This document shows, piece after piece, positions 41,588-43,279 of a stretch of 64,000 nucleotides of DNA (positions are counted from its first letter, which is position 1; the number at the start of each line of letters is the position of its first letter). Location: positions 1 through 64,000 of the forward strand of contig JADNRV010000189.1 in the NCBI GenBank assembly GCA_015499995.1, in the 5' to 3' direction. A model generated the notes under the pieces. It ran no database searches and was not told where the DNA came from. It saw only the letters and a program-made list of their open reading frames with translations. This DNA comes from Flammula alnicola (lineage: Eukaryota > Basidiomycota > Agaricomycetes > Agaricales > Strophariaceae). Both the position numbers and the translations under genes were made by a program.

Positions 41588-43279
41588 TCAGTATCGACCA
41601 TTACAAGAGCACTTGCCATCCTGCATAATATGCACTCTCGACCTATCCCAATGGTGGATCGAGATGGATTCCAGGACCGTAATGTGTTTGGACGCCTCAT
41701 GACACGCCCCACATATCCGCAGGTTCTTCCGCAGTACAACATGGCGCATGCCTTGCGTGATGGCGTACGCCAACGCCAGTTTCTCGCTATGTTGGCATTG
41801 GATAGACTCATCGCTGACACCGCACGCCGCGAGCCAGAGGCTCCATTCCTTGAGCTTCCGGTGGATGGCGCTCGAGGCATGGGACAGCTCGGGCGGGATC
41901 TCCCTGACATGGAAGACATGTGTCTTGCCATCGCCCATGGACAGCGTGACAGCACCGCGCTCCTTCGCAAGCCCTTTCTCCAGCCGCTCCTGTTGCATGC
42001 GGGACGCGGCAGACACATCTCCACAGGCCTTGTGCACATCCGACATGAGGACGTAGGCCGACGCGAGCTGCTCGGGCGACCCAAGCCTCTTCACGGCGTC
42101 GAATGCCATCTGCGCGACGGGTAGATTCTTGAAATGCCGACAAGGACCGAGGACCGTCATCCACATCACGTCGTCTTCGCCCATGGTGCTTTGGCGCTTG
42201 GCCCGTTCGATGATGGCCAGGGCGGATGTGAAGTCACCGCTTCGTGCGTACGCGTCTACGAGTGCGGTGTAGGATCGGATATCCGCGACGGGAGGGTGAC
42301 GATGGTCGGCCTCGATTTGGTCCATCAACGCGCGGGCGGCGGCGACATTGCCCGAGTGAGAACAGGCGGTGAGAGCGGCGGTCAACATGTGGGCGTTGAA
42401 GGAAGAGGGAGGGATGTTCTTGATGAGCGCGAGGACCTCGTCGTCGGCGCCGTGGGCGGCGAGTATGGACAGCATGCTGCCGGTGACGATGGGGAGGTGG
42501 GCGATCCCGGCGCTCTTGGCGTCCGCCCAGACCTGGCGTGCCACCGCCATGTTGCCAGTTCGGCCGCAGAGAAGGAGGTACTGGGCAGTCACGTAACGCA
42601 GCTCGTGATCGTCGGGCTTTGCGTGGCGGCGCGGGGCGGCCCACTGCCATGCTTTTCTTGCCAGGTCGAAGTCGTGGCGGGCGTTGCACGTCTTGAGCAA
42701 TACACCGATGACGCGGGGATCTAGATCGTGCGGACAGGGCTGCTGGAAAAGTTGGTTGATGAGGCGGGTTTCCTCGTCAAGTGAGTCGATGCCGCTGTGG
42801 ATGAGGCGGGCGTAGTCGGTAGGAATGAGCGGTATGCCTCTGGCGACGAGGAGACGGAAGGCGTTGATGGCGACTGGGCTGTTTTTGTGCTTGGATGCGT
42901 TCCCGAGGACGGCACGAAAGACTCCTTGATGGATATGGGGAATGTTCTCGGGGGGAATGCGGGCGAGGAGGGTACCAGCGAGTTGTGGGTCATTGACAGA
43001 GGGACCAGCACTGACGTGGGCGGCGGCGGCAAGGAGTTGCCAGGGAACGGTGTCGTTGAACCTGCGGGCGCCTTCACTGACGAGTTCGCGTACCTCCCTT
43101 GAATCGTTGGCCTTGCGTACAAGGCCGGTCAAGAAACCACCACCGACATATCCATCCCGTTCTTCTGCGAGGTCCACATACTTGAGCAATCCCTTCCGCA
43201 GTGGACGTCCAGACGAGTGCACAAAGGCTCGTCCTGCAGGCCACAGCAACGGTGGGCGTAGTGCGACGCGCCCAAGCAT
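41588..43279 (-). CDS. Pentatricopeptide-repeat protein with E and DYW domains
   Basis: An intact single-exon gene of 563 residues. The N-terminus (MLGRVALRPPLLWPAGRAFV) is Arg-rich and suits mitochondrial import. Helical PPR-like units follow from about residue 110 (for example SYTALVDAYARSGDFTSALA). Then come plant-type E1/E2 motifs (WMTVLGPCRHFKNLPVAQMA, SAYVLMSDVHKACGDVSAAS), a PG-box-like segment (KERGAVTLSMGDGKTHVF) and a complete DYW deaminase. HSE at 497-499 and Cys523/Cys526 form the HxE...CxxC zinc site; His527, His550, Cys557 and Cys559 match the second zinc site. The last three residues are GRY instead of DYW. In plants such proteins convert C to U in organellar RNA. In a fungus the target is unknown, but the intact catalytic residues argue for activity. 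Transfer from another eukaryote is possible. Confidence 0.9.
   Translation of the reverse strand: MLGRVALRPPLLWPAGRAFVHSSGRPLRKGLLKYVDLAEERDGYVGGGFLTGLVRKANDSREVRELVSEGARRFNDTVPWQLLAAAAHVSAGPSVNDPQLAGTLLARIPPENIPHIHQGVFRAVLGNASKHKNSPVAINAFRLLVARGIPLIPTDYARLIHSGIDSLDEETRLINQLFQQPCPHDLDPRVIGVLLKTCNARHDFDLARKAWQWAAPRRHAKPDDHELRYVTAQYLLLCGRTGNMAVARQVWADAKSAGIAHLPIVTGSMLSILAAHGADDEVLALIKNIPPSSFNAHMLTAALTACSHSGNVAAARALMDQIEADHRHPPVADIRSYTALVDAYARSGDFTSALAIIERAKRQSTMGEDDVMWMTVLGPCRHFKNLPVAQMAFDAVKRLGSPEQLASAYVLMSDVHKACGDVSAASRMQQERLEKGLAKERGAVTLSMGDGKTHVFHVREIPPELSHASSAIHRKLKEWSLWLAACGVSDESIQCQHSEKLALAYAITQGMRHVVLRKNLRICGACHEASKHITVLESISIHHWDRSRVHIMQDGKCSCNGRY

Follow-up and report, generated by a model that had tools for sequence, protein, structure and literature searches.

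Within the 64,000 nucleotides of Flammula alnicola DNA that we analysed (positions 1-64,000 of contig JADNRV010000189.1, assembly GCA_015499995.1; hereafter the window), a nuclear gene on the minus strand encodes a pentatricopeptide repeat (PPR) protein that ends in E1 and E2 motifs and a DYW-type cytidine deaminase domain. The gene is a member of an already known fungal/paradinid clade (PMC11946409). On balance, we think it probable that it was acquired horizontally, and that its product is imported into mitochondria and converts C to U at one or a few mitochondrial RNA sites. What we have not met in description elsewhere is the shortened gating domain of the clade, and the RGxV box and DRY/GRY end are likewise described here for the family; the words "gating" and "finger" are absent from the main text of PMC11946409, a statement that does not extend to its figures.

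A first-pass annotation, made from the letters of the window alone, had claimed an intact frame of 563 residues with the order PPR, E and DYW. The frame is confirmed, as is the order, which consists of helical repeats with one clear PPR, E1-E2 and the DYW deaminase. The features are as follows.

41588..43279, minus: complete coding sequence of the PPR-E-DYW protein; single exon, intact 563-amino-acid (aa) open reading frame (ORF)
43175..43279, minus: Arg-rich leader, aa 1-35, without acidic residue; probable mitochondrial presequence (from composition and hydrophobic moment)
42599..43186, minus: N-terminal helical hairpins, aa 32-227 (structure model; no Pfam PPR match)
42173..42598, minus: last four PPR-like repeats, aa 228-369 (boundaries set by hand)
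within 42173..42598, minus: final repeat, S2-like, aa 334-369, code residues T338/D369
42065..42172, minus: E1 motif, aa 370-405, VMWMTVLGPCR (compare VVWGTLLGACR in 9kfx; alignment and model)
41957..42064, minus: E2 motif, aa 406-441, with K439 just ahead of the PG-box position (alignment and model)
41591..41956, minus: DYW-type deaminase domain, aa 442-563, 122 aa
41792..41920, minus: shortened gating domain, aa 454-496 (H454-Q496), 43 aa, much of the beta-finger gone
41783..41791, minus: HSE, aa 497-499, catalytic-zinc ligand and catalytic glutamate (34/34 family rows)
41699..41713, minus: CGACH, aa 523-527, with catalytic-zinc ligands C523 and C526, structural-zinc ligand H527, and A525 replacing the usual D before the second C
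41591..41632, minus: aa 550-563, HIMQDGKCSCNGRY, with structural-zinc ligands H550, C557 and C559 and the terminal GRY

The Pfam check suggested with the annotation gave a clear answer, since PF14432 (DYW deaminase) matched the window protein at 55.6 bits against a cut-off of 24; the same profile was matched by 27/27 family members at E 0.01 or better. Exactly one PPR exceeded the Pfam cut-off in the window protein, and in the model helical hairpins span aa 32-369, while the predicted local distance difference test score (pLDDT) is below 50 for aa 1-23. These Pfam and model results are what bears on a possible P-L-S triplet array. The presence of E1 and E2 ahead of the deaminase is indicated by the alignment with 9kfx (aa 267-560) and by helix pairs in the model. 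The Pfam E_motif was detected in 3 of the 27 family members, the window protein not being one of them, and a search of the genome with this profile gave no match but is uninformative, as the controls also gave none.

The assembly comprises 74.4 Mb in 861 contigs. The protein search and the DYW profile each yielded two matches in it, the window and contig C203, that is, one PPR-E-DYW gene per haplotype. In the C203 stretch that was compared with the window (C203:32000-61999), the sequence from 37965 onward corresponds to window 32199-53963 in three blocks (96.2, 96.8 and 98.7% identity), which add up to 21.8 kb of alignment in a 24-kb part of C203; no match to the window was obtained for the initial 6 kb of that stretch at the cut-off used, and further out two more C203 pieces keep the same order as the window. 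The window gene and the C203 copy are read as haplotypes of one gene. Between their coding regions we counted 36 differences, of which 27 are synonymous and 9 non-synonymous (dN 0.0071, dS 0.0689, dN/dS 0.10). Compared with the 76% of possible changes that are non-synonymous, 9/36 is a strong deficit (p 2e-10), which shows that the gene is held by purifying selection between the two haplotypes.

Family-wide changes in the deaminase domain

The 34 family rows were set against 55 DYW rows from outside the family, with the residue roles taken from the work of Takenaka et al. 2021 on the plant protein OTP86 (PMC7611903). The catalytic and structural zinc ligands, the catalytic Glu and the equivalents of S893, K915 (here K518), R918 and R945 are retained in 34/34 family rows, so that HxE(x)nCxxC and the structural-zinc ligands, which had been listed in the first-pass annotation for the window protein, are all present there and throughout the family. 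As judged from these residues and the predicted fold, the reaction of the window protein is expected to be that of a zinc-dependent cytidine deaminase.

The gating region has 43 residues in 34/34 family rows versus 55 in OTP86. It measures 53-55 residues in 51/55 of the other rows (52/57 by a first count), the four exceptions being P0067 and P0093, which look full-length by eye, P0088 (51 residues) and P0059 (40 residues). The whole deaminase domain is 122 aa in the window protein versus 133-135 aa in the 22 of the 55 other rows in which it was measurable. D872 of OTP86 is aligned to a gap in all 34 rows and so are 8 of the 16 beta-finger positions; the alignment therefore shows a finger that is trimmed but not entirely lost. 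Between the gating helix (463-485) and the active-site helix (498-508), the model is free of strands, a comparison that should be read with the fact that the resting crystal form of OTP86 itself has a loop at the beta-finger site (PMC13041630).

The PG box reads RGxV in 33/34 family rows (RGAV in the window protein) and RGAS in the remaining one. Thus the equivalent of S828, a serine that helps hold OTP86 in its resting state (PMC7611903), is nearly always lost (S828 corresponds to V444 by our own mapping). The D922 equivalent is A in 30/34 rows (A525 here), the W960 equivalent is Y in 33/34 and F in 1/34 (Y563 here), and the spacer between HSE and CxxCH is 23 residues in 34/34 versus 25. The last triplet is DRY in 13, GRY in 12 and otherwise in 9 of the 34 rows, with Arg as its middle residue in 28; the distinct C-terminal subgroup suspected from the terminal GRY of the window protein therefore exists as part of a family trait. 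In comparison with the plant DYW:PG type, represented by OTP86 (PDB 7o4e/7o4f) and the synthetic PPR-DYW protein 9kfx, the window protein shares the E1-E2-DYW order, both zinc sites, the K915 and R918 equivalents and the deaminase fold, but differs from OTP86 in the gating length, the reduced finger, V444, A525, Y563 and the spacer.

Relatives and origin of the gene

The family was gathered by three protein searches, two of which scored the best 8000 candidates by shared words. Its named fungal rows come from Amanita phalloides (73% identity) and Hebeloma (71%), the closest named orthologs, and from A. rubescens; many further rows carry no organism label. The family also includes P0015, labelled Balamuthia mandrillaris (64-66%), and full-length relatives in two EukProt transcriptome records (P0031 and P0037). 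The other named rows of one search were mostly land plants, together with a Sporobolomyces PPR protein for which no DYW domain is listed and P0051 and P0061, two Balamuthia proteins that are canonical and have DYW at the end. Canonical DYW proteins and a single member of the shortened family thus occur together among the records labelled Balamuthia mandrillaris.

In a tree of the E-DYW region (53 rows), the 34 family rows were split from 17 plant-labelled and the 2 canonical Balamuthia rows by a branch with support 100/100, at which the program warned of long branches meeting. In a full-length tree (28 rows), P0015 was sister to a clade of the window protein and the three named fungi (100/98; 99/95 for the clade without P0015), and P0034, P0017, P0018 and P0031 fell outside. 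A weaker point is that the fungal clade without Balamuthia reached only 95/65 on the E-DYW tree. A clade of P0015 with P0034 was rejected by the approximately unbiased (AU) test (p 0.003), but one of P0015 with P0014 only marginally (p 0.049), and for this reason the position of Balamuthia just outside the fungi appears supported but not firm. That the Balamuthia label of P0015 reflects a contaminated record is mildly disfavoured by its location on an 85-kb contig, the two canonical DYW proteins under that label being on contigs of 92 and 103 kb. The tree check proposed earlier was carried out with plant, Balamuthia and fungal rows, among which the family is now placed. The two Amanita species did not form one clade either (AU test, p 0.0002), since the A. 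rubescens protein grouped with Hebeloma and unlabelled rows apart from A. phalloides (P0003, P0012, P0016). Either a transfer among mushrooms or a mislabelled record would account for this split; PMC11946409 suggests a transfer of the former kind for Piloderma, with which the split agrees.

Searches with two peptide patterns each gave 17 matches in a viral collection and 36 in a prokaryotic one, none of them confirmed by tblastn. Considering these results, the trees and the relatives in Agaricales and protist records, acquisition from another eukaryote, which the first-pass annotation had offered as one of two readings, seems the likeliest origin. We infer a transfer into the fungal lineage from a protist of this family, most likely one that already had the shortened form, the direction being tentative, as only some of the rows have a known host. 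On the other hand, two terms of the annotation do not stand. "Plant-type" is at odds with the loss of the PG-box serine (33/34), of much of the finger and of the terminal W, and with the split from the 17 plant-labelled rows, subject to the long-branch warning. Moreover, "overlooked" no longer applies, because fungal PPR-DYW genes are in print. PMC11946409 (2025) describes them in several fungi, all Agaricales except Piloderma, predicts that the proteins of seven fungi are mitochondrial, proposes that the fungal and paradinid genes had one origin and leaves fungal editing for further study, and Laccaria bicolor already figured in a DYW tree in 2014 (PMC4202320). The window protein shares with that clade the Agaricales host, the PPR and DYW parts, HxE, CxxC and the two-residue shortening between HSE and CxxC. 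In the clade's numbering, as mapped by us, the deletion at alignment positions 43-44 is found (spacer 23 vs 25) and H28, E30, C56 and C59 are present. Nothing that we tested separates the two; in our tree, whose named fungal rows are those of Amanita and Hebeloma, these group with the window protein. A literature search that covered few subscription papers recognised no report of editing activity for a fungal DYW protein.

Proposed function and alternative explanations

The mechanism that we propose would begin with the N-terminal leader, whose Arg-rich composition suggests mitochondrial import; no D or E occurs among the first 29 residues of the window protein or of P0001-P0014 (15/15). The helical-repeat/PPR tract would then grip the transcript, with the last PPR (T/D) expected about 4 bases 5' of the edited C if plant geometry applies, E1-E2 would position the deaminase, and zinc at H497/C523/C526 together with E499 would remove the amino group. 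The C-to-U direction is favoured because paradinids of the same clade show C-to-U sites in mitochondria, besides A-to-I (PMC11946409), and because HSE is the form that the active site takes in C-to-U enzymes (PMC9478123). Since the PG-box serine, D922 and much of the beta-finger, all three linked to the resting state in OTP86, are missing or reduced together, we infer that the deaminase may not be gated by the plant "zinc shutter". Two papers on fungal mitochondrial editing (Ganoderma sites called by a plant-trained program; one C-to-U and two A-to-C sites from transcriptomes) were not used, as neither deals with a known carrier.

Several observations weigh against this proposal. The leader is not family-wide, as the Balamuthia row is acidic at position 7 and several protist/environmental rows have early acidic residues. 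In OTP86, beta-finger removal or D922A reduced activity, the former also opposing an ungated enzyme, and W960 matters, W960A having reduced editing (PMC7611903), yet the W960 equivalent is never W in the 34 rows. K928 and D958, which brace the DYW motif in OTP86 (PMC7611903), are conserved in only 19/34 and 15/34 rows, respectively (K531 but G561 in the window protein). The authors of a study on Coprinopsis identified no PPR-DYW in that mushroom (PMC10532568), so the gene would be dispensable in some mushrooms. Finally, no mitochondrial DNA (mtDNA) contig was found in the assembly with the cox1, cob and atp6 profiles, and a permutation test on the last four repeats revealed no significant excess of conservation at the code positions over the surrounding ones (p 0.17 with 17 rows, 0.30 with all). 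Over seven repeats, the mean conservation of code positions was numerically higher (0.945 vs 0.859). Because the result for the last four repeats is not significant and a clean code is confined to the final repeat (T338/D369; T/D is read as G in the general PPR code), the target prediction by PPR code that had been proposed is not feasible, and it was given up, the code being too degenerate.

Another observation may touch the mitochondrial genome. A ~1-kb AT-rich insert at window ~15154-16204 carries tRNA-Lys(ttt) and tRNA-Ile(gat); it has no match in the C203 haplotype, though both flanks match, and short pieces match contig C75. As tRNA-Ile(gat) is of the mitochondrial type, the insert may be mtDNA that entered the nuclear genome recently. 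We recognised no mitochondrial protein gene in it, and inspection of its two tRNAs by eye revealed no C-A mismatch that editing would repair.

We considered whether the protein might instead be a general mitochondrial deaminase that relies on other RNA-binding proteins to select its sites, a model put forward for diplonemids and their single PPR-DYW (PMC12699882). The single gene per haplotype and the degenerate repeat tract would fit, and the genome has other PPR genes (22 PPR_2 matches, several at contig pairs with equal scores). Diplonemids also resemble our case, by description and not by sequence, in having one PPR-DYW gene outside plants and a less conserved gating region, but they have ~100 PPR proteins and 114 deamination sites (PMC12699882). 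As the window protein possesses a repeat tract itself and can be aligned with 9kfx from aa 267 onward, we regard this explanation as unlikely. A non-editing factor of RNA maturation, with the DYW domain kept for folding or RNA contact, could be suspected from the reduced finger, the lost PG-box serine (33/34) and terminal W (34/34) and the lowered editing of OTP86 after finger removal or W960A (PMC7611903). It is rather improbable, however, given that HxE, CxxC, the K915 equivalent and all structural-zinc ligands are kept in 34/34 rows and that a purely structural role would not require E499.

The reverse reaction, U-to-C, as catalysed by designer DYW:KP proteins that were modelled on sequences from hornworts, lycophytes and ferns, is suggested by the altered PG box and the Arg in the middle of the last triplet (28/34), DRY/GRY (25/34 rows) resembling the DRH and GRP of hornwort DYW:KP (PMC9478123), and U-to-C is the main type reported in Coprinopsis (PMC10532568). 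Nevertheless, the active site is HSE in 34/34 rows, whereas A is the conserved DYW:KP residue (HAE), and the domain has 121-122 aa counted from the PG-box G versus 133 by the count of PMC9478123 itself; in addition, the related paradinids show C-to-U and A-to-I (PMC11946409), and the Coprinopsis editing was described in a mushroom where its authors identified no PPR-DYW (PMC10532568), so that U-to-C is very improbable here. Contamination or an assembly artefact can practically be dismissed. The only hint of it is the GC content at third codon positions of the gene, which is 0.72, seven other raw ORFs in the window having 0.52-0.62. C203 carries the gene within collinear blocks (21.8 kb at 96.2-98.7%, and more collinear pieces beyond them), the yeast protein ARB1 is the best match among PDB chains for an ORF 12 kb from the gene, and Amanita and Hebeloma have orthologs at 71-73%. 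The second haplotype and the orthologs thus support the fungal host assumed in the first-pass annotation.

Returning to C-to-U editing in mitochondria, a bolder extension, which we put forward tentatively and with more doubt than confidence, is that the family constitutes a third working DYW class in addition to DYW:PG and DYW:KP. Its members would be editing deaminases that naturally have a reduced finger and no gate and that spread first among protists and later into mushrooms, where one gene would suffice for all mitochondrial editing, directed at a single conserved target. If the protein does edit, mushrooms would possess a counterpart of the plant editing machinery reduced to one gene, gained by transfer, in a kingdom where removal of the gene can be tried. 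The shortened deaminase would also be a direct test of whether the plant gating domain and beta-finger, whose role a 2026 structure review names as still to be clarified (PMC13041630), serve catalysis or only control, and would offer a more compact deaminase scaffold.

Neighbouring features of the locus

About 8 bp past the stop codon of the gene (window 41580), the C203 haplotype has an extra stretch of 2.27 kb (C203:47328-49601); one part of it duplicates, in diverged form (70%), the segment at window 43391-43628, which lies upstream of the gene. A repeat pair at its two ends was looked for and none was found. The downstream neighbour (window 39556-41015) looks, as read from the sequence, like an intron-bearing gene of the sugar-transporter type, its 368-aa ORF having no Pfam match at 1e-4. 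Elsewhere in the window, one ORF matches PP2A-type phosphatases and another, at 12629-13528, has a chromo domain, which is frequent in fungal long terminal repeat (LTR) retrotransposons.
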